In this document: piece after piece, positions 26,028 through 64,000 of the stretch
Position numbering within the stretch: the stretch's first letter is position 1
Layout of the letters: each line of letters opens with the position of its first letter
Source of the DNA: Methanocalculus taiwanensis
GTDB taxonomy: Archaea; Halobacteriota; Methanomicrobia; Methanomicrobiales; Methanocorpusculaceae
Length of the DNA stretch: 64,000 nucleotides
NCBI RefSeq assembly: GCF_024372745.1
Contig: NZ_VOTZ01000009.1
Location: 1-64,000 of the forward strand
Reading direction: 5' to 3'
Notes under the pieces: generated by a model
What the model was told of the DNA's origin: nothing
Seen by the model: the letters and a program-made list of their open reading frames with translations, nothing else
Database searches by the model: none
Translations under genes and position numbers: made by a program

Positions 26028-28069
26028 TGTGGCTCGAATCCCATCTGCATTTTATCAACACTACACTCAGCAGATATACCCCCGATTTCCTTTGGAGCCT
26101 CTCCACCCCTCCCAATCATCCCGGCTTCCCCGATGGGGATACCGTGCCGGAGCATCGTGCAGAAGATAGCAGGAAGACCTGCTTTCTGGATCGCGCCTGT
26201 CACAGACTCGATATCATAGGGTATCCGGATATGGCAGATAGAGAGGGGGTTTGCTTCAAGCAGGCAGTAGCATGCCCTCGGATCCCCATCTGCCGGTCGC
26301 CCGACCGAACCGGTATTGATGAAGTGGCATTCAGAAACCGTCCGTGTGAACGGAACATGCGTATGTGCTGAGACGATGAGATCCACACCCGTTGTGTTCG
26401 CATATGCTAGAAGTTCCATATCAGGCGTATGCGGACCGATACGCCCTGTGGTCGATTCCGGGCTCCCATGAGTGAGGAGGAGGGTCATATCACCGATTCG
26501 TGTCCTTATTTCCCGCGGGAGTGAACGTAGATAACTCCTGCTGTCTTTTGAGAGCTGCTTTCTTGTCCAGCAGAGTGCCTGCATCTTCACATCATCAGAA
26601 ACAGCCTTCTTTCTACAGTCATTCTTTCTGAGCGAAAGGGTATCGATATCGATATTGCCTGCGATCCCGTTAATTTTCTTCTCCCCAATCAGTTGTAGCG
26701 TCTCTTCCGGATGCGGTCCAAAACCTATTAAATCCCCGAGATGAAGGATATGCGTTGCCCCTCTCTGTTCCGCATCCGCGATGACCGCCTGGAGCGCCGG
26801 AAGATTTGAATGGATATCCCCGATCAGGGCGATCCGTATATTCCTCCCCTCAAAAGTGCCATGAAGCCCGGGGTTTTCGAGGAGAAACGGCTCGACAATC
26901 TTCTGCCTGATATCCTCTATCAGATCATCCTCCACCATAGCCTTCCAATGGAGAGAGAAGAGCTCATACAGCTCATTCCGGCGGCATCTCCGATCGTCTG
27001 CAAGATGCAGCAGACCCGGCCTGATGAACCGCATAAACCCGTTATGCCCAAAGAATGATCGGACACGGGATTCCTCTTCCTCCATGAAGTGCGGCAGGAC
27101 ATCCAGCCAGACATCACAGTCATGCATATCTCCCAGGAGATCCTGAAGCTTCTTCACCACCTGTATCGGCTTTTTCAGGGCATCGGGGTAGAGATCACTG
27201 AAGATCTCCATTGTGTACCTTAGCCTCTTGGCTGCGATCCGCATCTCATGATGCTCTGCAATTCTTGTCGGATCGGGCACATAACGTTCAAACGAGATCA
27301 GCTCCTCAAGCCGGGTACTGATCGCATGGTATGCTGCTTCATAGGTAAACCTGCTATGGATATCGGTTTCATGAAGGTGTGCTGAGACGATCTGATCCCT
27401 GCACCACTCAAGAAGTACGTCAGCAACTCCTGAAGATTCAAAGGCATCAACCGATGAAACGACCTCCGGGTGGAGCGAAGCCCGCCTCTCTGTCCATCTG
27501 AGGAGAAGGCATTCTATCCCCGGTCTGATAAGCGGTTGAAAGGCAGTCTCTTCACACGGGGCGGGGAGCGCAACACCGCCGGTGATATAGACCCGAATCT
27601 TCCAGAGGAGTTCACGCATCCGCATGCGGATACCCGGCGACGGGGGTAGAGATAAAACACCGACGGGAGGGGCATCTGCTGTTACAAGGACGGTTGTATC
27701 CTCTGCCGGAGGCAGGAAACCCGCATACCAGACGGGAGGATGCTCGTCTGGGAGTGAATGAAGAAACGACTGAAGAAATTCGATCTGTACATCCAGATCC
27801 CGCGCCGCCCCAAGTGAGCGGGTAATGGAGCGGACACCTTTACGCGCCTTTTTATACGCCGACTCGGGAAGGCAGGGGGCAAAAAGAGGAAGAGCTGCCC
27901 GGACACGCCGTGAGGCAACCCGCATCCTGTGGATATATTCGATATCATCCGATTCCCTGACGCCGTCTGCTTCTGCTTCAAGATCCTCGGTGAGTCTTCT
28001 GAGAGTTTGTGCCCCAAAAAGGGAGAAGCCCCCATCAATCTTCTCTTTCTTTCCACCCATGCCATGCAC
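26024..28069 (-). CDS. CHAD domain-metallophosphoesterase fusion
   Basis: A 681-residue fusion. The N-terminal CHAD domain (about 20-390) has helical histidine-containing blocks, HRMRVASRRVRAAL and HEMRIAAKRLRYTMEIF; such domains bind polyphosphate. The C-terminal calcineurin-like phosphoesterase (about 410-640) has GDIHSNLPAL, LGDLIGFGP, GNID, THGSP and SAHTHVPF, a complete set of metal ligands. A role in polyphosphate or nucleotide hydrolysis is inferred from the operon. Its start overlaps the upstream kinase by 35 bases. Confidence 0.88.
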   Translation of the reverse strand: MHGMGGKKEKIDGGFSLFGAQTLRRLTEDLEAEADGVRESDDIEYIHRMRVASRRVRAALPLFAPCLPESAYKKARKGVRSITRSLGAARDLDVQIEFLQSFLHSLPDEHPPVWYAGFLPPAEDTTVLVTADAPPVGVLSLPPSPGIRMRMRELLWKIRVYITGGVALPAPCEETAFQPLIRPGIECLLLRWTERRASLHPEVVSSVDAFESSGVADVLLEWCRDQIVSAHLHETDIHSRFTYEAAYHAISTRLEELISFERYVPDPTRIAEHHEMRIAAKRLRYTMEIFSDLYPDALKKPIQVVKKLQDLLGDMHDCDVWLDVLPHFMEEEESRVRSFFGHNGFMRFIRPGLLHLADDRRCRRNELYELFSLHWKAMVEDDLIEDIRQKIVEPFLLENPGLHGTFEGRNIRIALIGDIHSNLPALQAVIADAEQRGATHILHLGDLIGFGPHPEETLQLIGEKKINGIAGNIDIDTLSLRKNDCRKKAVSDDVKMQALCWTRKQLSKDSRSYLRSLPREIRTRIGDMTLLLTHGSPESTTGRIGPHTPDMELLAYANTTGVDLIVSAHTHVPFTRTVSECHFINTGSVGRPADGDPRACYCLLEANPLSICHIRIPYDIESVTGAIQKAGLPAIFCTMLRHGIPIGEAGMIGRGGEAPKEIGGISAECSVDKMQMGFEPQ

Positions 28070-30131
28070 CCCGGTGTTGAATCAGCCATTCCTGTGAATT
28101 ACAGGCTTTATCTGTATTCTCTGGATGAATCCTGTCATAACTTCCATCAGTATTCAACCGCCACGATTTCTGGTTATCTGAAAGATGCACCCTCATGATC
28201 CTGATGAGAGCGGATCTGATCGCCGGATCCCGCACCGGAAAGAGCACCTCCACCCTCCGCCTGAGATTCCGCTGCATCATATCGGATGAGCCAAGGAGTA
28301 CCTCATCATCTCCCCCGTTATGGAAATAATAGATGCGTGCATGTTCGAGGAAACGGCCGACTATTGAGGTAACACTGATCGTATCGGAAACACCTGCAAT
28401 ACCGGGCCGAAGAGCGCAGAGCCCCCGGACATTCAGATCCATTCTGACACCTTCATGTGAAGCCTGGTAGAGAGCGGATATGATATCAGGGTCAAGAAGC
28501 CCGTTCAGCTTCAGGGCGATATATCCATTCTGATCCCGCTTCTGGTGTTCGATCTCCCGTTCAATCCGGTTCAGGATCCCCTGCCGGAGGTTAATGGGAG
28601 CGACAAGGAGCTTCCGGTATTCCTGCCGATCCACATAACCGGTCAGGTGGTTGAAGAGCTCCGTTGCATCGGCCCCAATATCAGGATCAGCGGTCAGGTA
28701 ACCGATATCTCCGTAGATACGGGTCGTCACTGTGTTGTAGTTTCCCGAGCTTAGGTGCACATACCGGTAGATGCCATCTGCTTCACGCCTGATTATCAAT
28801 GCCACCTTCGCATGCACCTTCAGACGCTCATGCCCATAAACGACATGCACCCCTTCCTGCTCAAGAGCCCGCGCCCAGGTGATGTTATTCAGCTCATCGA
28901 ACTTTGCTTTCAGTTCGAGCACCACCGTCACCTGTTTCCCATGCTGACGGGCTTTCATCAGGGCATCAACAATAGGGGATTTTTTATCGATCCGGTACAT
29001 GGTGATCTTGATCGCAAGCACATCCGGATCGATCGCCGCCTGACGGAAGAGCCGTACAATCGGAATGAAGCTGTCGTATGGATGGTAGAAGAGGATATCA
29101 CGTGATCGGGCGACATCAAAGATATCCTCTTCATGAACCAGTGGATTGGTGATATGGGGAACAAATGGTTCATCAAGGAGATCGGGACGTGAGAGATCAT
29201 GCAGCTGCCAGAGATCATTATGGCCGATGAAGCCGGAAACACCATAGACATCTATCTCTTTCAGCCCAAGCCGCTCTGAGAGAAGGAGGATCAGCCGCGG
29301 TGGCATAGCAGGATCAACTTCAAGCCTGACAGGCACCCCTGTACGCCTGCATTCGATACTGTCCTCCACTGCAGTCAGGAGATCTGATGCATCATCAATG
29401 ACCACTTTGATCTCCGCATCCCGTGTTACCCTGAACCGGTATGCACCCTCCACACTCATTCCCGGGAAGAGGGAGCCTAGATGCTCAGCTACGAGATCTT
29501 CAAGGAGGATGAATCGGGACGATGGTGCTCCGGAGGACGATTTTACAGGAATGAACCTGCCAAAAGTGAGGGAGGGGATCTTTATCCGCGCGAGATAACG
29601 CCGACCATCAGTTGATCCAAGGACAACAGCCAGATTCAGCGATAGATTCGAGATGAAGGGGAACGAGCGTGCGGCATCGATTGCCATCGGAGTCAGTATC
29701 GGGTAGATGGTAGACTGGAAGTAATCATGCATTGCCTCTTTTTCATCATCCGTCAACTGGGAGAACTGAACAATTGATATTCCTGCATCTGACAGAGCCG
29801 GAAGGAGAGACCTGCTCCAGGTCTCTTCATAGAGGCAATAGAGTTCATCCACTTCAATCTGGATCTTCCAGAGGAGATCAGCGGGGGCTGTTCCATCGGG
29901 AGGCAGTTTCCAGATACCGTCCTTTACCTGGTGGCGAAGCCCTGAGACCCTGACCATAAAGAATTCATCGAGGTTGCTCCCGCAGATCGCGAGGAATTTC
30001 ACCTGTTCAAGGAGCGGATGCCTGCTGTCATTTGCCTCTGCCAGAACCCTCCTGTTAAAGGAGAGCCACGAGAGTTCCCGGTTGATGTAATAGTCAGGAT
30101 CTTTTGGATTAAATGCCTCTTCAGTTGCCAT
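28035..30131 (-). CDS. ppk1: polyphosphate kinase (PPK1 family), second of two
   Basis: A 698-residue PPK1: N domain INRELSWLSFNRRVL, head domain with LDEFFMVRVSGL, and two phospholipase D-like domains. The autophosphorylated His is in LKVHAKVAL with HLSSGNYN after it, and the second catalytic His is in RFLEHARIYYF. It reversibly transfers ATP gamma-phosphate to polyphosphate. It overlaps the other ppk by 11 bases. Confidence 0.95.
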   Translation of the reverse strand: MATEEAFNPKDPDYYINRELSWLSFNRRVLAEANDSRHPLLEQVKFLAICGSNLDEFFMVRVSGLRHQVKDGIWKLPPDGTAPADLLWKIQIEVDELYCLYEETWSRSLLPALSDAGISIVQFSQLTDDEKEAMHDYFQSTIYPILTPMAIDAARSFPFISNLSLNLAVVLGSTDGRRYLARIKIPSLTFGRFIPVKSSSGAPSSRFILLEDLVAEHLGSLFPGMSVEGAYRFRVTRDAEIKVVIDDASDLLTAVEDSIECRRTGVPVRLEVDPAMPPRLILLLSERLGLKEIDVYGVSGFIGHNDLWQLHDLSRPDLLDEPFVPHITNPLVHEEDIFDVARSRDILFYHPYDSFIPIVRLFRQAAIDPDVLAIKITMYRIDKKSPIVDALMKARQHGKQVTVVLELKAKFDELNNITWARALEQEGVHVVYGHERLKVHAKVALIIRREADGIYRYVHLSSGNYNTVTTRIYGDIGYLTADPDIGADATELFNHLTGYVDRQEYRKLLVAPINLRQGILNRIEREIEHQKRDQNGYIALKLNGLLDPDIISALYQASHEGVRMDLNVRGLCALRPGIAGVSDTISVTSIVGRFLEHARIYYFHNGGDDEVLLGSSDMMQRNLRRRVEVLFPVRDPAIRSALIRIMRVHLSDNQKSWRLNTDGSYDRIHPENTDKACNSQEWLIQHRGAWHGWKERED

Positions 30132-32238
30132 GCCAGATCCCCCTGTGCTGGATCATCCATGCCTGTGAATCGATCGGTTCAGCACCCGGCTCGACCCGCT
30201 TATAGGTGCCATCCCTGTTCATCAGGCGAAGCTTAACCGTATCCTTCAGATGGATCTGAAGGATTGTTTTAATAACTGCGTTTCTGATCTCGCTATCCCG
30301 TATAGAATAGAGGATCTCAACCCTGCCATTTAAGTTCCGCGGCATCAGATCGGCTGATCCTATCAGCACCTCCTCTTCACCGGCGTTTCTAAAATAATAG
30401 ATCCTGGTATGTTCAAGGAACCGACCCACGATTGAAGAGACGGTGATGTTGTCGGAAAAACCTGGGATGCCGGGGCGCAGGCAGCAGATGCCACGCACCT
30501 GAAGATGGATCCGTACACCCTCCCCTGATGCCCGATAGAGTGCTGCGATAAGATCCGGGTCAACAAGTGAATTACATTTAAAGGCAATATACCCGTTCCC
30601 ATATTCCCGGTGCATACGTATCTCACGACCGATCCGGGAAATGAGATCCTCACGCATCCGCCCCATCTTTCCATGGGAAACGAGCAGAGTCCGGTATTCT
30701 ATCTTTGCGGAGTAGCCTGTCAATGCATTAAAGAGATCTGCTACATCGGCTCCAACTGCCGGATCTGCGGTGAAGAGACCGAGATCGGAATATACACGTG
30801 CAGTCTGGGCATTGTAGTTGCCAGTTCCAAGATGGGTATAAGTGACAAGCCCGGTGGATTCGCGGCGAACCACCATGCAGAGTTTTGCATGCACTTTCAG
30901 GCCTATCAGCCCGTATACCACATGAACACCAGCCCGCTCAAGTGCCCGTGCCCAGATGATATTATTCTCCTCATCAAAGCGTGCTTTCAGCTCGACTAAA
31001 ACCGTCACCTGCTTGCCCTGTTCACGCGCCTCCATCAGAGCCTCGACGATGGGAGAGTTCTGCCCGACACGATAGAGTGTCTGTTTGATCGCAAGGACAT
31101 CCGGATCGCGTGCTGCCTGCCTGATGAAGCTCACCACCGGGATGAAACTGTCATAGGGATGGTAGAGAAGATAATCCCGCTTCTTAATGGCACGGAAGAT
31201 TGTTTTCTCAGATTGTAGCCCTTCAGGAACAGATGGCAGGAATGGAGCGTCTTTAAGTTCGGGGCGATTAATTCCTGCAAGCTCCATGAGATCGGCCATA
31301 CCAATCGGACCGGTGCAGGTATCAACCTGTTCAGGGTTTAGCCTGAGTTTTGAGGCGAGCATGTCCCGAACCCATACCGGGATAGAAACATCTACTTCAA
31401 GCCGGACAGGGCGCCCGATCCGGCGGTGCTCCACGCTCTCCTCAATTGTGGTGAGGAGATCAGATGCTTCATCCTCTTCGATCTCAAAATCAGCATCCCG
31501 TGTCACCCTGAATGGATAGGAGGCCGCTATCTCCATTCCAGGGAAGAGGAGATCCAGATTGTCTGCGATTAAGTCTTCAAGGAGGACATAATGGTGCTCT
31601 TTTCCACCAGAATCCTCCTGGGAGAAGAGCCGAACAAATCGCTGGACAAGACTACGGGGCACCTTCACCCGTGAGAAGAGGCGACCCCGCTTTTTATCAT
31701 TAATGATGACTGCCAGGTTTAGCGAGAGGCTTGAGATGAAGGGGAAGGGATGAGAGATATCAAAGGCCATCGGGGTGACGATTTGGAATATATCCCTGAT
31801 GAAGATCTCGCGGGCTTGTTTTCGATATTCCGGGCTTAATTCATCCATCCTGTGGATAATAATCCCTTCACTTTTGAGTTCCGGCAGAAGATGATCCTTC
31901 CAGCAGGAGGTTGCTTCATTCAACAGAGATGTGAGATCTGATCGGATACCGGCGATCTGCTCTTTTGGGGAGAGGCCGTCAGGCGGTCGCTCGAGTGCCC
32001 CGGCTGCGGCCTGCCTCCAGAGTCCCGATAGCCGGATCATTACAAATTCGTCCAGGTTATTCGCAAAGATCGAGAGGAATTTGACCCTTTCGAGAAGCGG
32101 GTGGTTCCGATCCAGTGCTTCTTCAAGGACACGCCTGTTGAACTGTATCCAGGAGAGTTCGCGGTTATGAAAGACTTTCGGAGTATAGAGCAGCACTGAG
32201 TCGGAAATACCCTGATGAATGGTGCGGTCTGTCTCCAT
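30121..32238 (-). CDS. ppk1: polyphosphate kinase (PPK1 family), first of two
   Basis: A 705-residue PPK1 paralogue with the same domains: HNRELSWIQFNRRVL, NLDEFVMIRLSGL, catalytic LKVHAKLCM and HLGTGNYN, and RFLEHTRIYYF. All catalytic residues seen in the second copy are kept, so both look active. By eye it is clearly diverged from its neighbour, so not a recent duplicate. ATG at 32238 is preceded by GAGTGATC; an in-frame ATG exists at 32256. First gene of the operon. Confidence 0.93.
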   Translation of the reverse strand: METDRTIHQGISDSVLLYTPKVFHNRELSWIQFNRRVLEEALDRNHPLLERVKFLSIFANNLDEFVMIRLSGLWRQAAAGALERPPDGLSPKEQIAGIRSDLTSLLNEATSCWKDHLLPELKSEGIIIHRMDELSPEYRKQAREIFIRDIFQIVTPMAFDISHPFPFISSLSLNLAVIINDKKRGRLFSRVKVPRSLVQRFVRLFSQEDSGGKEHHYVLLEDLIADNLDLLFPGMEIAASYPFRVTRDADFEIEEDEASDLLTTIEESVEHRRIGRPVRLEVDVSIPVWVRDMLASKLRLNPEQVDTCTGPIGMADLMELAGINRPELKDAPFLPSVPEGLQSEKTIFRAIKKRDYLLYHPYDSFIPVVSFIRQAARDPDVLAIKQTLYRVGQNSPIVEALMEAREQGKQVTVLVELKARFDEENNIIWARALERAGVHVVYGLIGLKVHAKLCMVVRRESTGLVTYTHLGTGNYNAQTARVYSDLGLFTADPAVGADVADLFNALTGYSAKIEYRTLLVSHGKMGRMREDLISRIGREIRMHREYGNGYIAFKCNSLVDPDLIAALYRASGEGVRIHLQVRGICCLRPGIPGFSDNITVSSIVGRFLEHTRIYYFRNAGEEEVLIGSADLMPRNLNGRVEILYSIRDSEIRNAVIKTILQIHLKDTVKLRLMNRDGTYKRVEPGAEPIDSQAWMIQHRGIWHGN

Positions 32239-32412
32239 GGAGATCACTCTTACCATTGGGCTTGATACAGATATTTGTTCCCGCTGGAGGGCGCGTATGC
32301 ATACTGAATGCCACAGTGGATACACTATATCGTGATCATGCCACCTATCGGTGATGATGAGGGAGACTGGCAGGGACAAAGAACAATACCATCCCGCACA
32401 AAAATATTTCAT

Positions 32413-56572: not shown

Positions 56573-58153
56573 ATGGAGCCTATTCGAAGGATCAAAAAGT
56601 CTGACGGAAGAGAATACTGGTACGAAGAAACACCATACTACGACCCGGTATCAAAACAAACTCGATATAAGGACTCCAAATATCTTGGTCGGAATATCGA
56701 TGGAAAACCCGTTCGTATGCGGGATGCACCACAAGAAGTCAGAGAAAAGATCAGGAAAAATACCAAAACACTAGCGATCCGCTCTGCCTATGACCATGGA
56801 TCAGTTATGCTTCTCACGCAGATCATGCATGACCTGAAACTGGATCAATACCTGCATGAGATCCTCAATGACTCCGATACCGCAATGGTCACTGCACTTG
56901 CACTCAACCGGATTATCAGGCCACTCGCGATGAAAGATGTCGGGGCATGGTACGCCGGAACCACTCTCGCTCTTGATTCGCCACATATTTCTCTTACCGG
57001 ACAGAGAATCAGTGAACTGCTTGCTCGAATCGGGTCAAGTACTGTTCCGCAGCAACTGATGGCAAGACTTCTGGAAGAGAACGGGACGAAACGGACACTG
57101 ATTTATGATATCACCAGTCTCTCCAGTCATTCTACCCTGATGAACCTCCTTGAATACGGATACAACAGGGACGGTGTTTCACTTCCCCAGATTAACCTCT
57201 CACTCATCATGGACAAGGAACTCGGCATCCCGGTGATGTACGATCTCTATCCAGGGAGTATCACTGATGTCACAACGCTCACCGGCACACTGAAGAAACT
57301 TGCTGCATATGGCGTGAAAGACTATACCGCCATTATGGATCGTGGGTTTTTCAGCCAGCATAATCTTCTGGAGATGCTTGACCAGCAGCTCTCTTTCATT
57401 ATCTCTGCCACGTTCCAGCTGAAGGATGTAAAACTCCTCCTCACCGAGGCTCAGCGGAATATCACCAATGTCGAATACATGCAGAAGTTCAAGGACAGGA
57501 CGATCTACGCAAAACCAGTGATGCTGCCTCTTGAGTCCTATCATCTGAAGGGGTATCTCTTCTATGATCCAAAACGGGAACTTGAGCAGAAAGAATCACT
57601 CACCAGCCGTCTTGTTGATATCAGGGATGGACTGGCCGGAGTTAGGCTGAGGAAGGATAAACCTGCATTTATCAGGTTTTTTGAGATTGCAGGCAAATTC
57701 AAGAACTTTTTCGATTGGAAACAGGTGGATGATCGGATTGAAGCAACAATTCGGCAGAATGCTGTTACACAACGGATGAACAGAATGGGGAAGTTCATGG
57801 TGTTTTATTCAGGAGGTGTTGACTGGTTGACTGCTCTGTCGCGGTACCGGGAACGCGATGAGATCGAGAAGGAGATTGAGATGATGAAGTCGGATCTGGA
57901 TATTCTACCACTGAATACGCATAAGGACATTACCACAAGCGGTTTCATCTTTATTGTGTTTGTAGCTTTGATCATCCGCGCCCGATTGCTGCGAATGATG
58001 ACTGAAGCAGGGTTGCTGAAACACTATTCTGTCAAGAGCCTCTTGCTTGAACTCGATAAGCTCAAAAAGATCACTCTTGCGGATGGGCAGGTGATGACGA
58101 CAGAGATGACGAAGAATCAACGTCTCATTCTTGAACCACTTGGGATCATGTGA
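56573..58153 (+). CDS. IS1634-like DDE transposase
   Basis: A 526-residue transposase. It has an N-terminal region (PIRRIKKSDGREYWYEE), the first catalytic Asp in YDITSLSSHS, the second in AIMDRGFFSQHNLLEML, and a C-terminal region with a helical ITTSGFIFIVFVALIIRARLL segment in pieces typical of the family. The family Glu is probably in the region around 440-470, where DDE motifs are poorly conserved. No frameshift or stop is seen. Confidence 0.9.
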   Translation: MEPIRRIKKSDGREYWYEETPYYDPVSKQTRYKDSKYLGRNIDGKPVRMRDAPQEVREKIRKNTKTLAIRSAYDHGSVMLLTQIMHDLKLDQYLHEILNDSDTAMVTALALNRIIRPLAMKDVGAWYAGTTLALDSPHISLTGQRISELLARIGSSTVPQQLMARLLEENGTKRTLIYDITSLSSHSTLMNLLEYGYNRDGVSLPQINLSLIMDKELGIPVMYDLYPGSITDVTTLTGTLKKLAAYGVKDYTAIMDRGFFSQHNLLEMLDQQLSFIISATFQLKDVKLLLTEAQRNITNVEYMQKFKDRTIYAKPVMLPLESYHLKGYLFYDPKRELEQKESLTSRLVDIRDGLAGVRLRKDKPAFIRFFEIAGKFKNFFDWKQVDDRIEATIRQNAVTQRMNRMGKFMVFYSGGVDWLTALSRYRERDEIEKEIEMMKSDLDILPLNTHKDITTSGFIFIVFVALIIRARLLRMMTEAGLLKHYSVKSLLLELDKLKKITLADGQVMTTEMTKNQRLILEPLGIM

Positions 58154-58622: not shown

Positions 58623-60569
58623 ATGAGGTCTCAAAAATCAAACAATACTATTTTTCTTGCTCTTCAGAATGATATCAATCCTTCCAACCTGCAAAGAAAA
58701 CTTGAAACTTTGGACATACGCCAGTGGATCTATCTTGGAGAGGATAGCACTTGGCTGGCAGAGATAGAAGGTCTTCTTTCGGAACAGATTAAACGAATTC
58801 CAATTGCAGATCAGCTAGATACTGTAGCAAATAATCTACGCCATCAATTTATCGATTGGATAGGCGATCTATCCCTTTTAAACGACTCACGAGAGTGGTG
58901 GGCTTCAGAAATGCCCGCAAAAAATCCATATTTCATGCTTTATGAGAGAATTTGCCTTCTTGCTGTAGGAAGAGAACTGATTTCAAATGGTGTTGATAAA
59001 CCAACATTGATTGTTACTTCAACACACGGTCTTTTTGAGGAGATTTCATCATTTGCTACGAAAAATGAAATAAAAACTAAGATATTCCCAAAATCTCAAA
59101 TAAATACTTTTCTAAAGATATCACAAGACGTAATTCAAAGGCAACTTATTTACATTCTGCGAAGACTTCCACCAATACAGAAAGGTGATCGTATATCAAA
59201 TAATTATAAAAAGTTACTTGAAATTCATCCCGAATTTCGAAGGAAAGTAATTAAAAAAAATACTGACACTAATATCAAACCCTTTTCTGGAGAGCGATCA
59301 ATACTGCTTTTTACATTTGTTGATCATCGTAATTTTCTACCAGATGGCTCGTACAGAGACCCCTATTTGGGTCCTCTCCCACAGATGCTCAAGGCAAAGG
59401 CTTACGAGGTTGCCTATGTCCCACGGGTGCTTTATACTGCATCATATGAGGAGACTATTAAAAAGCTCAATCAAACCGGCGAGAGATTTTTCTTTCCAGA
59501 TTGGTTTATCAATAAGAAAACGTGGTTTGAATGTCAGAAAGCTGCTTCACATTATACACCAATAATACCTGAGACAAGCACTGTAGGAGATATTCCCACC
59601 TATAGATTAACAATGGAACATATTACACAAACACGCCAATCTCTCTCAGATACACTCCTTTATGAACCGCTCATCGCTGGTTTGGCAGCAGCCGGGATCA
59701 AACCCTCACAGATAATTCATACAGTTGAAGGCCATAGCTGGGAACATGCACTTGCCTGGTCCGTTAAACGCCATATGCCCAACACAATAATTGTCGGGTA
59801 TGATAATGTGACCTTTTCCCGAATGGTTCTCTCAATGTTTCCTTCACAAAAAGAATATGGTATCCGTCCACTTCCAGATCGTCTTGTGACAAATGGACCT
59901 CTTTATAGAGACATATTGATAAACGAAGGAAGGCCAGAAGACCAGGTTATATCCGGGTGTGCACTTCGACATACATATCTTTGGAAAGAACAGCTGGAGG
60001 GGAATAATATCCACAATATACAAGAGGATAAAATCATTAATATTCTGGTTGCTACTGCAATTGGTTTTGGAGATTCAGTTGAGCTCATTGCTAAAGCAGC
60101 TGAAGCATTTGGAGGCAATTGCGATTATAAAATCATAATAAAATGCCACCCCCTTGTCAATATTGATGCTGTTAAAAAATACCTTGGTTCACTCTTATCT
60201 TATGACAATATCACATTCGCTAATGAACCTATAGATCTTCTTCTACAATCAGCCGATATACTGTTATACACCTACACAACCGTTTGCTATGAAGCTCTAC
60301 AGATGGGCGTCGCTCCGATCTTTGTCAGATCAGAAACATTTGTTAACCTTGACAAGTTGGATATTGCACCAGGTGTCAGATGGGTTGCAGCGACGCCTGA
60401 AGACCTTCGGATTTTAGCATCGAAATTATCTTTCATGTCGATTGAGGAGCGAGATGCATGGAAACAACAAGCATCTTTTATTGTTAAGAGAGCTTTGGCT
60501 CCAACTTTTTCAGACTGTACGAATATATTTATAGATAAAAATTATAAGAATAAGCAATATATTATTTAA
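58623..60569 (+). CDS. large surface-polysaccharide biosynthesis protein, GT-B-like
   Basis: A 648-residue soluble protein. The WWASEMPAKNP segment and overall layout resemble the TIGR04326 surface carbohydrate biosynthesis family. The C-terminal half (about 380-640) follows a GT-B pattern: VATAIGFGDSVELIAKA, KCHPLVNIDAVK, LLQSADILLYTYTTVCYEAL (a nucleotide-sugar site pattern seen in capsule polysaccharide transferases). Donor and acceptor are unknown. AT-rich. Only one base separates its stop from the convergent radical SAM gene. Confidence 0.7.
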   Translation: MRSQKSNNTIFLALQNDINPSNLQRKLETLDIRQWIYLGEDSTWLAEIEGLLSEQIKRIPIADQLDTVANNLRHQFIDWIGDLSLLNDSREWWASEMPAKNPYFMLYERICLLAVGRELISNGVDKPTLIVTSTHGLFEEISSFATKNEIKTKIFPKSQINTFLKISQDVIQRQLIYILRRLPPIQKGDRISNNYKKLLEIHPEFRRKVIKKNTDTNIKPFSGERSILLFTFVDHRNFLPDGSYRDPYLGPLPQMLKAKAYEVAYVPRVLYTASYEETIKKLNQTGERFFFPDWFINKKTWFECQKAASHYTPIIPETSTVGDIPTYRLTMEHITQTRQSLSDTLLYEPLIAGLAAAGIKPSQIIHTVEGHSWEHALAWSVKRHMPNTIIVGYDNVTFSRMVLSMFPSQKEYGIRPLPDRLVTNGPLYRDILINEGRPEDQVISGCALRHTYLWKEQLEGNNIHNIQEDKIINILVATAIGFGDSVELIAKAAEAFGGNCDYKIIIKCHPLVNIDAVKKYLGSLLSYDNITFANEPIDLLLQSADILLYTYTTVCYEALQMGVAPIFVRSETFVNLDKLDIAPGVRWVAATPEDLRILASKLSFMSIEERDAWKQQASFIVKRALAPTFSDCTNIFIDKNYKNKQYII

Positions 60570-60570
60570 A

Positions 60571-62097
60571 TTACCTTAGATATCGCATAAAAAACCAGTA
60601 TTCAAAAGGTATTTTGAATATAAAATGCTTTATACGAAATTTCGACAATTGGTGCATAAAATAGCTTGCCAGACCTTTAATAGAACTTTTTTTATCGGAT
60701 GTACGCAGGAAGGCAAAATACGAATAAAAAGGAAGTAAATGGGCAATAATTTGGAATTTTTCCGGAGTCCATGGCATATGAGTATAGCAGGACTCGTTTT
60801 GAAGGAATATAACCCAGTCTTCAAGCTCTTTCGGAATATCAAGATCATACCTTTTAATAATTCGGTCATAAATCGGCGAGCCCGGATAGAGCCTGAATAT
60901 GAACGGACCTGCAATATCTACTTCAGGATTGATCTTGAGTAGTGCAAAACAAAAACGATAGGTATTCTGTATCTGATCCAATGTTTCGTTCTCAAGACCT
61001 ACCATAAAGCTATAACGGGGCATTATCCTTGTGCCGGTTATCGTACGCAATGAGTGCAGAATCTGTTCCGGAGTAATACCCTTTTTGAGAGCATCTAACA
61101 TTTCCTGATTTGCACTCTCTCCCCCCATAACGAGCGAACCATGACCAATTGCGGCAAGTCTTTCAATGAAATTCCTATCAATGTATTTTTCTTTGAAATG
61201 ATCGACTCTGCACCACATTCTCCAATTAAAATGCAAACCCTCTTTTTCCACAAGATCAACGAATTCAAATGCTCGCTTTTTATTGATAAAAAAATCCTCA
61301 TCAAGAAAGAAAAATGTGTTTACATTATACTGGGACATAAGATGCTTAATTTCAGATACAATTGATTCCGCCGATCGAATTCGGTATTTTCTCTTAGTAA
61401 TCACATTAAAGCAGAATTGGCACTTATATGGACATCCAAGAGCTGTTAAGATTGGAAGAACACGAACCTTATCATGATATGATTGGAACTCTCTCTGGTA
61501 TACTGATGATGACGATGAATTAAGATAATTATCAAGTTCTATTAATGAAAAGTCAAAGTATGGGAGTTCTTCCAAGATATCTAGACATGCTGATTCAGAA
61601 AAAATAATGTTTCCAGATTGATCTTTATAACCAATTCCATGTATTGAATGAAGAGGCCTATTAGTCACAAAGGCTTGCGCTAGCGCAAGTGAGGCAGATG
61701 TACCTTCATTAATAACAACAATGTCAATATTGTCATTCCGAAGTGTCTGTTCCGGGAAAAGAGTCGGATGAGGTCCACCCCAAACAACCTTAATAAGTGG
61801 ACAAAAATCCTTAATAAGTTTAGAAGCCTCAAGTGCGAATGGTATCTGTGTTGTCATAACAGTCATACCAACGTAGAGCACGTCCTCCGATAGCAACTCT
61901 CTTAATTGCTCAAGATAATCCTGATGGTAAGCACCATCAATAATTTTCACATCAAATTCATGTTCATTTAAATAGGTCCCTAACAACAAAGAGGCAGTGC
62001 ATGGATAGATACTCCCTTTATTTGAATATGAAGAGTCAATTGCTGGCAGAAAATTTAGAAAAATTATTTTATTTTTTTTTTTGGTCTCCATCGACAA
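60571..62097 (-). CDS. B12-binding radical SAM protein
   Basis: A 508-residue protein: N-terminal cobalamin-binding-like Rossmann domain (about 1-180, with VVWGGPHPTLFPE) and a radical SAM barrel with the cluster motif CPYKCQFCF, GGESANQEML and MPRYSFMVGLE. The usual DXHXXG of B12 domains is not obvious, so cobalamin use is not certain. Such enzymes often methylate unactivated carbons or sugars. Last gene in the operon with kdsB. Confidence 0.87.
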   Translation of the reverse strand: MSMETKKKNKIIFLNFLPAIDSSYSNKGSIYPCTASLLLGTYLNEHEFDVKIIDGAYHQDYLEQLRELLSEDVLYVGMTVMTTQIPFALEASKLIKDFCPLIKVVWGGPHPTLFPEQTLRNDNIDIVVINEGTSASLALAQAFVTNRPLHSIHGIGYKDQSGNIIFSESACLDILEELPYFDFSLIELDNYLNSSSSSVYQREFQSYHDKVRVLPILTALGCPYKCQFCFNVITKRKYRIRSAESIVSEIKHLMSQYNVNTFFFLDEDFFINKKRAFEFVDLVEKEGLHFNWRMWCRVDHFKEKYIDRNFIERLAAIGHGSLVMGGESANQEMLDALKKGITPEQILHSLRTITGTRIMPRYSFMVGLENETLDQIQNTYRFCFALLKINPEVDIAGPFIFRLYPGSPIYDRIIKRYDLDIPKELEDWVIFLQNESCYTHMPWTPEKFQIIAHLLPFYSYFAFLRTSDKKSSIKGLASYFMHQLSKFRIKHFIFKIPFEYWFFMRYLR

Positions 62098-62100
62098 ACC

Positions 62101-62841
62101 TCACTTAATATATAAATTATAAATGGAATCTGAGCGCATAAGAATTCTAACCTCTTCTAGATCATCAGGTGTATCAACACTAATTTTTGCGTCATCAACA
62201 TGAACACCCCGGATTTTAACACCATGTTCTAAGACACGGAGATATTCATTATATTCGATCTGCTCAAGTGGAGTCGGACTCCAGGACGCATATTGAATTA
62301 AAAAATCCTTTCGGAAAGGAACAATAAAGCTCATTTTAAGCATTTTTTCTACAGCTGTTCTTGCATCACTCGGAAGATCAGTACGAGAACAATACATGAT
62401 ATCATTATTCAGATCTAAAACGGCCTTAATATCGGATGGGCTATTCTTTTTAGAATATTGTGTAACCCCAACAGCAATCTGAACAGACGTATCCAAAAGA
62501 AGGGGTTCAACTATTGCATCAATATGATCCGGGTTAACCAGAGGTTCATCTCCCTGAATATTTACAACGATCTCACAATCAATCTCCTTGCAGGCTTCAG
62601 CAAGCCGATCTGAACCGGTTTTATGATCTCGGCTTGTCATAATAACTTTACCCCCATGTTGCTCTACAACACTCCTTATTCGACCACTATCAGTTGCAAC
62701 AAAAACATCATCAAGTGTCTGAGCCAGTAGTGCTCGCTTATAGGTATGAACAATCATAGGAAGACCACAGATATCCACGAGTGCCTTCTCAGGGAGACGA
62801 CTGGACTCCAACCTTGCCGGGATTAAGCCCACAACCCTCAT
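62101..62841 (-). CDS. kdsB: KdsB-type CMP-3-deoxy-sugar acid synthetase
   Basis: A 246-residue nucleotidyltransferase with the KdsB pattern: GLIPARLESSRLPEKALVDI in part, DVFVATDSGRI, DHKTGSDRLAEA, NIQGDEPLV, IVPFRKDFL and SVDTPDDLEEV. KdsB couples CTP to Kdo in Gram-negative bacteria. A NeuA-type identity is unlikely given these motifs. The actual sugar acid in this archaeon is unknown. It overlaps the aldolase gene by four bases. Confidence 0.88.
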   Translation of the reverse strand: MRVVGLIPARLESSRLPEKALVDICGLPMIVHTYKRALLAQTLDDVFVATDSGRIRSVVEQHGGKVIMTSRDHKTGSDRLAEACKEIDCEIVVNIQGDEPLVNPDHIDAIVEPLLLDTSVQIAVGVTQYSKKNSPSDIKAVLDLNNDIMYCSRTDLPSDARTAVEKMLKMSFIVPFRKDFLIQYASWSPTPLEQIEYNEYLRVLEHGVKIRGVHVDDAKISVDTPDDLEEVRILMRSDSIYNLYIK

Positions 62842-63644
62842 ATGCGCCCCTCCTTCTGGACGATCTGTTTAAAAATACGATGTGTATCGGCAAATGCATT
62901 GTAAATTAAGGTTAGATCGGGGAGCAGCGTGATAATTTGCATACCCATATCACACATCCAACGCATATCTTCACCTTGTTTGGCAACATAGCCACCAGGT
63001 GCTATTCCTGCATCCCTAATTTTTTTGATACAAACAGTAAGGTGTCTTCTTACCTCAGGGTGGTCGATCTCCCCAGGGCAACCAACAGCCTGAGAAAGAT
63101 CATACGCTCCAATATATATGAAATCTATTTTCTCAGATATGTCTTGAATTGATAAGATATCATCGAGATTGTTGATTCCTTGTATTCCTTCAAGTAATAA
63201 GCCAAGGACTGTCCGGGCATTCTGAACCTGAGCATGTTGCTTAATATCATCTGGAGAGAAACCTCCTGCCCGTGTATACGGTGAAAAACCACGGTTCCCG
63301 AGGGGATGATATTTCGCATATTTTATTGCTCGTTCTGCATCCTCGCGTGATTCTATATGAGGGACGAGCAGGCCTGTTGCACCAATATCCAGTGCATGGA
63401 GAATATGAGATTCGTCATTTTTAGCAACTCGAACAAGCGCCGCACACCCATAAATATCTGCTGATCGAATCATATCAACAAGATGCTCAGTTGAGTGGGG
63501 TCCATGTTCCATATCAACAATGACAAAATCCATTCCGGTTTTTGCAATTATCTCGATTATATCAGAGGAAGGTAATATGCACCAGGGACCCGCTACCACA
63601 GCTCCTGTTTTCAGGCGTTTTTTTAAGGCATCTGAATAAGTCAT
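62838..63644 (-). CDS. HpcH/HpaI-family pyruvate aldolase
   Basis: A 268-residue TIM-barrel class II aldolase: FVIVDMEHGPHSTE with the base His, LVRVAKND, GATGLLVPHIES, LLLEGIQGINNLDDIL with the metal Glu, and YIGAYDLSQAVGCPG with the metal Asp. The family joins pyruvate to aldehydes, giving 4-hydroxy-2-oxo acids. In this operon it may make the deoxy-ulosonate used by KdsB. ATG at 63644 is chosen over 63653. Confidence 0.88.
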   Translation of the reverse strand: MTYSDALKKRLKTGAVVAGPWCILPSSDIIEIIAKTGMDFVIVDMEHGPHSTEHLVDMIRSADIYGCAALVRVAKNDESHILHALDIGATGLLVPHIESREDAERAIKYAKYHPLGNRGFSPYTRAGGFSPDDIKQHAQVQNARTVLGLLLEGIQGINNLDDILSIQDISEKIDFIYIGAYDLSQAVGCPGEIDHPEVRRHLTVCIKKIRDAGIAPGGYVAKQGEDMRWMCDMGMQIITLLPDLTLIYNAFADTHRIFKQIVQKEGRI

Positions 63645-63662
63645 ACACACCATAATTCCATA

Positions 63663-64000
63663 TTACTCCTTTATGTGTATTGCGGAGACACTATTGATTA
63701 CGTAGGGCGTAATCTCTAAGAGTTCCTTTTCGGATGTCAAACCGGTGAGTACTCCAATCGAAGCCTGACATTTTGCTTGAATACCCATCGCAACATCTGT
63801 CAAAGCATCACCAACCATAATAGTCCGGGTACTAATACAGCCGGTTTCATTCAGGATCTTTTCAATCGTCTCCGGATTGGGTTTTGGCATCTTTACAAGG
63901 TCTGCACCGATGATGCAGTCAATAAAAGGTGAGCATCCCAGATAATCCATAGCAAGCCGGGCACGTTCGGTTCGATCGGTTGTTGCAATAGCAATCTTGC
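63663..64000 (-). CDS. HAD-superfamily phosphatase (5' end outside window)
   Basis: The last 111 codons of a HAD hydrolase: IAIATTDRTERARLAM (motif II Thr), KMPKPNPETIEKIL (motif III Lys) and TIMVGDALTDVAMGIQ (motif IV). Motif I lies beyond the right edge. It resembles phosphoglycolate-phosphatase-like enzymes and could dephosphorylate a sugar phosphate in the same pathway. It precedes the aldolase by 18 bases. Confidence 0.87.
   Translation of the reverse strand, partial: KIAIATTDRTERARLAMDYLGCSPFIDCIIGADLVKMPKPNPETIEKILNETGCISTRTIMVGDALTDVAMGIQAKCQASIGVLTGLTSEKELLEITPYVINSVSAIHIKE

Follow-up and report, generated by a model that had tools for sequence, protein, structure and literature searches.

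To our knowledge, all characterised ulosonic acids activated with cytidine monophosphate (CMP), namely 3-deoxy-D-manno-oct-2-ulosonic acid (Kdo), the sialic, pseudaminic and legionaminic acids, and Kdn, are built by synthases that depend on phosphoenolpyruvate (PEP). Here we describe an operon of Methanocalculus taiwanensis that points to a different route. It straddles the end of the analysed stretch of DNA, hereafter the window, which comprises positions 1-64000 of contig C9 (73,734 bases) in a genome of 2.34 Mb that is 99.86% complete. With a probability of roughly 0.55, we predict that the operon is a mobile surface-glycan cassette making a CMP-activated 3-deoxy-2-ulosonic acid without a PEP-dependent synthase; its likely function is such a PEP-synthase-independent route, and the sugar is probably not Kdo. 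The individual reactions, their order and the identity of the sugar are what we infer from comparative sequence analysis. An earlier account of the window (the sequence-only reading) had proposed a Kdo-like pathway; its observation is confirmed and its interpretation partly supported.

The operon consists of six co-directional minus-strand genes, transcribed in the order HMGL-like aldolase, LdpA-like protein, HAD phosphatase, HpcH/HpaI aldolase, KdsB-family cytidylyltransferase and B12-binding radical SAM protein, with intergenic gaps of 84, 21, 9, -4 and 3 bases from 5' to 3' (Table 1). The operon starts beyond the window edge, and the LdpA-like and HMGL-like genes are found only in the contig sequence past position 64000. 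The sequence-only reading had reported the last four genes as a tight operon of a methanogen. These genes are present and linked on the minus strand, and the genome encodes McrA, which identifies its owner as a methanogen; the operon proved to be longer by two genes, one of them for a second aldolase, and the cassette is not specific to methanogens. Among the named matches to the operon, the best is a metagenome-assembled genome (MAG) of Methanocorpusculaceae, whose LdpA-like protein is 85% identical.

A scan of 84,980 species genomes yielded 80 loci, in which we recognise a recurrent cassette of HMGL, LdpA, HAD, HpcH, KdsB and TIGR04326 glycosyltransferase genes, their order being shuffled among genomes. 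All five core genes occur in 16 loci, several of the incomplete loci being cut by contig ends. The pairs LdpA then HAD, HMGL then LdpA, HpcH then KdsB, and KdsB then glycosyltransferase were counted 32, 21, 13 and 12 times, respectively. The archaeal hosts are methanogens and Micrarchaeota, and the bacterial hosts are WOR-1, Saganbacteria, Syntrophorhabdus and other former Deltaproteobacteria, Omnitrophota, Elusimicrobia, Parcubacteria, Bacteroidales, Nitrosomonadales and Microthrix; partial sets occur in Chloroflexi and Thioglobus. The LdpA-like genes of cyanobacteria and Gastranaerophilales lie mostly outside the cassette and, except for the loci named below, were left out of the argument. 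Among 150 related genomes searched, only four (G000, which is the M. taiwanensis genome, G004, G094 and G064) have a full-length LdpA-like relative, and a search of the PLSDB plasmids with this protein gave no match. We found no description of the cassette in the open literature searched, and one may exist in subscription journals; papers on Leptospira name kdsB1 and kdsB2 without mention of the cassette.

Because these genes are found next to one another again and again across many phyla, their linkage in the operon is not due to chance. This bears on the idea that catabolic or unrelated genes have come to lie in a glycan region by accident, which could be entertained since HpcH/HpaI and 4-hydroxy-2-oxovalerate aldolases are best known from the degradation of aromatic compounds and sugar acids. 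The conserved synteny strongly disfavours this idea and leaves it very improbable: the linkage is maintained in polysaccharide clusters of many phyla, together with genes for nucleotidyl or glycosyl transfer, and no aromatic-degradation context was found around the operon.

The M. taiwanensis genome contains no KdsA or other enzyme of the DAHP synthase family. Neither PF00793, which covers KdsA and DAHP synthase and was positive in 11 of 14 control genomes, nor the KdsA model TIGR01362 matched any of its proteins, and the Kdo transferase WaaA (PF04413) was not found in it. Thus, the lack of KdsA pointed out in the sequence-only reading extends to the whole genome, with no KdsA pathway beyond the window. 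Among 30 cassette genomes searched, TIGR01362 exceeds its cut-off in 13, and these genomes mostly have a second, canonical KdsB (187-293 bits) besides the cassette copy. The 17 genomes without KdsA above the cut-off include five methanogen genomes, Micrarchaeota, Microthrix, Parcubacteria, Chloroflexi and WOR-1/Saganbacteria. WaaA was not found in 15 of the 16 genomes without KdsA that were tested; the exception is Thioglobus, where a KdsA fragment is present, so that this genome may just be an incomplete one. Both KdsA and WaaA appear to be missing from about 12 cassette genomes that have KdsB (G000, G390-G395, G403, G404, G408, G409 and G412, the last with only a KdsB fragment at a contig end).

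Two NeuB-family synthases are encoded in the M. taiwanensis genome on contigs C38 and C6, each near its own PF02348 cytidylyltransferase, and neither adjoins the window cytidylyltransferase. These CMP-sugar-acid regions span G000:C6:77422-83371 and G000:C38:5949-11036 (L008, L009). The C6 region can be recognised as a cluster of the pseudaminic acid type by its PseB, PseC and PseG, the PseG-like domain being fused into a 608-aa protein. Their presence allows an alternative in which the acid activated by the window KdsB comes from another pathway, such as that of a NeuB, and the aldolase module supplies a separate 2-oxo acid that decorates the same glycan in another way; the LdpA-HAD-HMGL-HpcH module does occur in some loci without KdsB. 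We regard this arrangement as unlikely, as both NeuB genes have cytidylyltransferases of their own, one of them within the PseB/PseC/PseG cluster, and the HpcH and KdsB genes are neighbours in 14 loci, with an overlap of 4 bases in the window operon. Thus, a PEP-dependent synthase serves the two other clusters of the genome in which an acid synthase accompanies a CMP-acid cytidylyltransferase, and the window operon has pyruvate aldolases instead.

The window KdsB passes the curated cut-offs of TIGR00466 (169 versus 155 bits), PRK13368 (262 versus 255 bits) and PRK05450.1-5, finds its best PDB match in KpsU (1gq9), and keeps the catalytic N-x-QGDE motif. In a phylogenetic tree, it forms one clade with 19 other cassette enzymes (support 100/100), and the methanogen sequences sit within a mainly bacterial set; therefore, the cassette has probably moved between domains. 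The family assignment made in the sequence-only reading holds, and the enzyme belongs to a separate clade shared with many bacteria. To compare sugar-site motifs, we aligned the 20 cassette enzymes with 16 other proteins, namely E. coli KdsB, KpsU and 14 canonical KdsBs that the same genomes encode. All 16 have the motifs HxG[ILV]Yx[YF], LEQ and G[VI]D. We take the Kdo contacts of E. coli KdsB to be His181, Glu210 and Gln211. In the cassette enzymes, (i) the first motif reads [MA]xx[IV]V[PS]F (20 of 20), (ii) LEQ is replaced by NEY (19 of 20, with HEH in one), and (iii) G[VI]D is replaced by SVD (20 of 20); the window enzyme has KMSFIVPF, NEYLR and SVDT. Of the 20, 18 retain the nucleotide motif QGDE, and the other two have QADE and FGDE. 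For E. coli KdsB, the sequence taken as reference agrees with the aligned PDB entry; HpaI was the reference for the aldolase residues given below. The HxG motif has been named as substrate-binding (PMC7717453), and the C-terminal domain of KdsB binds Kdo (PMC3149649). As the motifs of the Kdo site are replaced across the cassette clade, Kdo itself is unlikely as a substrate, and is likewise unlikely to be what the window KdsB yields in activated form.

Given the same replacement, the Kdo-like identity of the sugar proposed in the sequence-only reading is not supported. An ordinary Kdo pathway could bypass KdsA if pyruvate were added to arabinose 5-phosphate and the product passed to the HAD phosphatase and then to KdsB. 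Such a route would agree with the KdsB family membership by NCBIfam cut-offs, with a HAD phosphatase where KdsC would stand, and with the HpcH family of aldolases, which take pyruvate and varied aldehydes. We consider it improbable, more so than activation of an acid made elsewhere, given the motif replacements and the bacteria that have KdsA and a canonical KdsB and carry the cassette in addition.

Cytidylyltransferases of other kinds were seen near related genes. The LdpA neighbourhoods of Prochlorococcus (L103, L104, L108 and L109) have another type of KdsB that falls outside the cassette clade in the tree, and three of them (L103, L104 and L109) also carry HpcH and HAD genes. In Anammoxibacter, the place of KdsB in the cassette is taken by a different PF02348 cytidylyltransferase (L085:11762-12499), a possible non-orthologous replacement.

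The predicted HpcH/HpaI aldolase looks active, with an intact pyruvate-aldolase site: its PDB matches are YfaU, HpaI and GarL-type aldolases, and counterparts of HpaI D42, H45, R70, D84, E149 and D175 are present in the window protein and in all complete members. It scores far under all equivalog cut-offs. The HMGL-like protein also looks like an active aldolase. It is nearest to the structural-genomics "putative aldolase" 3dxi and to 4-hydroxy-2-oxovalerate aldolases; most members have the motif DCT[IL]RDGG, and both metal-ligand histidines of HxH are invariant. Its C-terminal domain matches MptE-like proteins in 19 of 27 members (best 8.5e-9) and the CST-I sialyltransferase in two, and belongs to a superfamily that we take to include CMP-sugar-acid transferases (Maf and CST proteins). 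In the HAD phosphatase, the DKDGT motif is kept in nearly all members, and a GDALTD motif is also present.

A variant of the cassette suggests what the aldolases may produce. In the loci L111, L114, L132 and L149, no KdsB accompanies the LdpA-HAD-HMGL(-HpcH) module, and a thiamine diphosphate (ThDP) enzyme comes after it with RfbF-, RfbG- and RfbH-type genes alongside, which suggests synthesis of a branched cytidine diphosphate (CDP)-sugar. The variant is partial in L134 and L135, and its hosts are Omnitrophota, Magasanikbacteria and Gastranaerophilales. A YerE-like ThDP carboligase occurs only in the variant loci, with none among the annotated open reading frames of the window cluster. Pyruvate aldolases form 4-hydroxy-2-oxo acids as their product type. 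The best PDB match of the L111 enzyme (8rph, 456 bits) is JanthE, a YerE-like enzyme whose substrates include 4-hydroxy-2-oxovalerate (PMC12188165), and related ThDP enzymes depend on long hydroxy-2-oxo acids, 4-hydroxy-2-oxopentanoate being one example (PMC12247030). That these relatives take 4-hydroxy-2-oxo acids supports the LdpA-HAD-HMGL-HpcH module as a supplier of such an acid; judging by gene context, one cassette type would activate this acid with CMP, and the other would transfer it with decarboxylation. The suggestion of the sequence-only reading that a pyruvate aldolase stands in for KdsA thus gains from the intact active-site residues and from the link to enzymes of 4-hydroxy-2-oxo acids; its Kdo-like product is not supported. 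In a wider and more tentative proposal, to which we give slightly less than even odds, a cross-domain, PEP-independent HMGL/LdpA/HAD/HpcH module would make a hitherto undescribed sugar acid of the 4-hydroxy-2-oxo type. A new KdsB subfamily would activate this acid with CMP for transfer to a glycan, or YerE-like branched-sugar enzymes would use it as acyl donor; this would be a third route to CMP-ulosonates besides those of KdsA and NeuB.

The LdpA-like protein is modelled as a TIM barrel with a ferredoxin insert (predicted local distance difference test score, pLDDT, 91) and reaches 146 bits with the CircClkLdpA model, under its cut-off of 450; a fold search gave no specific relative, only distant TIM-barrel matches (TM ~0.5), which point to no particular reaction. 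The radical SAM protein is under all NCBIfam equivalog cut-offs. Its gene has the same position in L072 and L073 and lies inside the cassette in L083; it is an accessory member of the operon, not of the core cassette. The TIGR04326-type protein scores 67.7 bits with that model, under the 250-bit cut-off; one cassette relative reaches 432 bits, and all 19 aligned cassette partners match TIGR04326. In bacterial cassettes, proteins of this family are encoded downstream of KdsB as its partner. Its structural model (pLDDT 88) gives GT-B matches in a fold search that indicated no family of CMP-sugar glycosyltransferases.

A B12 radical SAM enzyme within the operon, together with the replaced sugar-site motifs and the apparent use of the module product as a ThDP donor in the variant cassette, would fit a KdsB-like enzyme whose substrate is a compound modified by the radical SAM protein or else a hydroxy or oxo acid that is no sugar; the resulting CMP-activated decoration would not be an ulosonic acid. 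We give this a low probability, comparable to that of an acid made elsewhere: attack by KdsB uses the anomeric hydroxyl of a cyclic ulosonate, and the glycosyltransferase partner and the sialyltransferase-like fusion point to a sugar acid.

For the preferred reading, a CMP-activated ulosonic acid made by the aldolases, we propose the following pathway: (i) the HpcH/HpaI and/or the HMGL-like aldolase would add pyruvate to a sugar or hydroxy-aldehyde, probably phosphorylated, to give a 4-hydroxy-2-oxo acid, (ii) the HAD phosphatase would take off the phosphate, as KdsC does for Kdo, (iii) the LdpA-like Fe-S TIM-barrel protein may perform some redox or sugar-phosphate step, (iv) the KdsB-family enzyme would join the cyclised acid to CMP, and (v) the TIGR04326 GT-B protein and/or the HMGL-fused MptE/sialyltransferase-like domain would transfer it to a glycan. 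In the window lineage, the product is probably modified further by the B12 radical SAM enzyme, through methylation or in some other way. Several points weigh against this pathway. Two aldolases are present, and one would be enough for the simplest scheme. The building block made by the aldolases could differ from the acid that KdsB activates. KdsB needs the hydroxyl at C2 as nucleophile, so a short hydroxy-keto acid of the kind used by ErwE is excluded as the activated compound and a longer, cyclisable acid is required. Finally, the comparison genomes are mostly MAGs of unstated completeness, and the absence of KdsA is thus less firm there than in M. taiwanensis.

The surroundings of the operon bear out the archaeal surface-glycan setting assumed in the sequence-only reading. 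Divergent sugar-nucleotide genes lie upstream of it, encoding a nucleotidyltransferase of the glucose-1-phosphate cytidylyltransferase kind, a 4,6-dehydratase, RmlC-like and RmlD-like proteins and a GT2 glycosyltransferase, as well as a TIGR04331 transferase. The guanine-plus-cytosine (GC) content of the operon region is 0.39 versus 0.525 in window positions 1-52000, and a DDE transposase gene (56573-58153) lies beside the glycan region; the low GC and the neighbouring transposase would fit a mobile glycan island. The transposase gene is directly followed by that of a putative cyclase (arylformamidase-like, PF04199; 58146-58634), which looks truncated and may be disrupted. Elsewhere in the window, two tandem polyphosphate-kinase-like genes (28035-32412, minus strand) were recognised by eye from their translations.

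Table 1. Genes of the predicted cassette and the convergent glycosyltransferase gene on contig C9
Predicted product	Position	Strand	Domain match or remark
TIGR04326-type surface-carbohydrate protein, predicted GT-B glycosyltransferase	58623..60569	+	TIGR04326 7e-19; convergent to operon
B12-binding radical SAM protein (BchE/HpnJ-like class)	60571..62097	-	PF04055 2e-17, PF02310 3e-16
KdsB-family CMP-sugar-acid cytidylyltransferase	62101..62841	-	PF02348 5e-49
HpcH/HpaI-type class II pyruvate aldolase	62838..63653	-	PF03328 1e-27
HAD phosphatase, 254 aa	63663..64427 (window holds C-terminal part, 63663..64000)	-	HAD_2 3e-25, full protein
LdpA-like Fe-S TIM-barrel protein	64449..65444	-	outside window
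HMGL-like (DRE-TIM) aldolase with MptE/sialyltransferase-like domain	65529..67193	-	outside window

If the proposed function is correct, the pyruvate-aldolase route would be a distinct solution, shared by archaea with Gram-positive, Gram-negative and candidate-phylum bacteria. Such a route would account for the "kdsB" genes of organisms without lipopolysaccharide (LPS) genes, would make automatic annotation as Kdo cytidylyltransferase probably wrong for the cassette clade, and would offer a concrete genetic handle on an unknown surface sugar of methanogens.

Comparison with the known systems reveals both shared and distinguishing features. Like the Kdo pathway (KdsD-KdsA-KdsC-KdsB), the cassette has a HAD phosphatase and KdsB-family activation dependent on cytidine triphosphate, with a surface-glycan product; unlike it, the cassette has pyruvate aldolases in place of KdsA and a separate KdsB clade with changed sugar motifs, adds LdpA-like and HMGL-like genes, and occurs in archaea and in bacteria without LPS genes. 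The nonulosonic acid pathways (NeuB/PseI/LegI with NeuA/PseF/LegF), which are known in archaea, also provide a CMP-activated 3-deoxy-2-ulosonic acid for surface glycans, whereas the window cluster has no NeuB-type PEP synthase and its cytidylyltransferase is of the KdsB and not the NeuA subfamily. The window HpcH shares fold family and catalytic residues with HpaI, GarL and YfaU and differs from them by its biosynthetic gene context. The LdpA-like protein has the Fe-S ferredoxin segment and LdpA_C domain of cyanobacterial LdpA, and is found in glycan cassettes without the clock context. The branched-sugar pathways of YerE, ErwE and JanthE (yersiniose, erwiniose, caryophyllose) are approached by the variant cassette, which joins the module to a YerE-like ThDP enzyme and CDP-sugar genes, and ErwE uses 4-hydroxy-2-oxo acids, like the product proposed for the module. 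In the window type, KdsB and a glycosyltransferase stand where the variant has its ThDP enzyme, and the acid would thus undergo activation and not decarboxylation.

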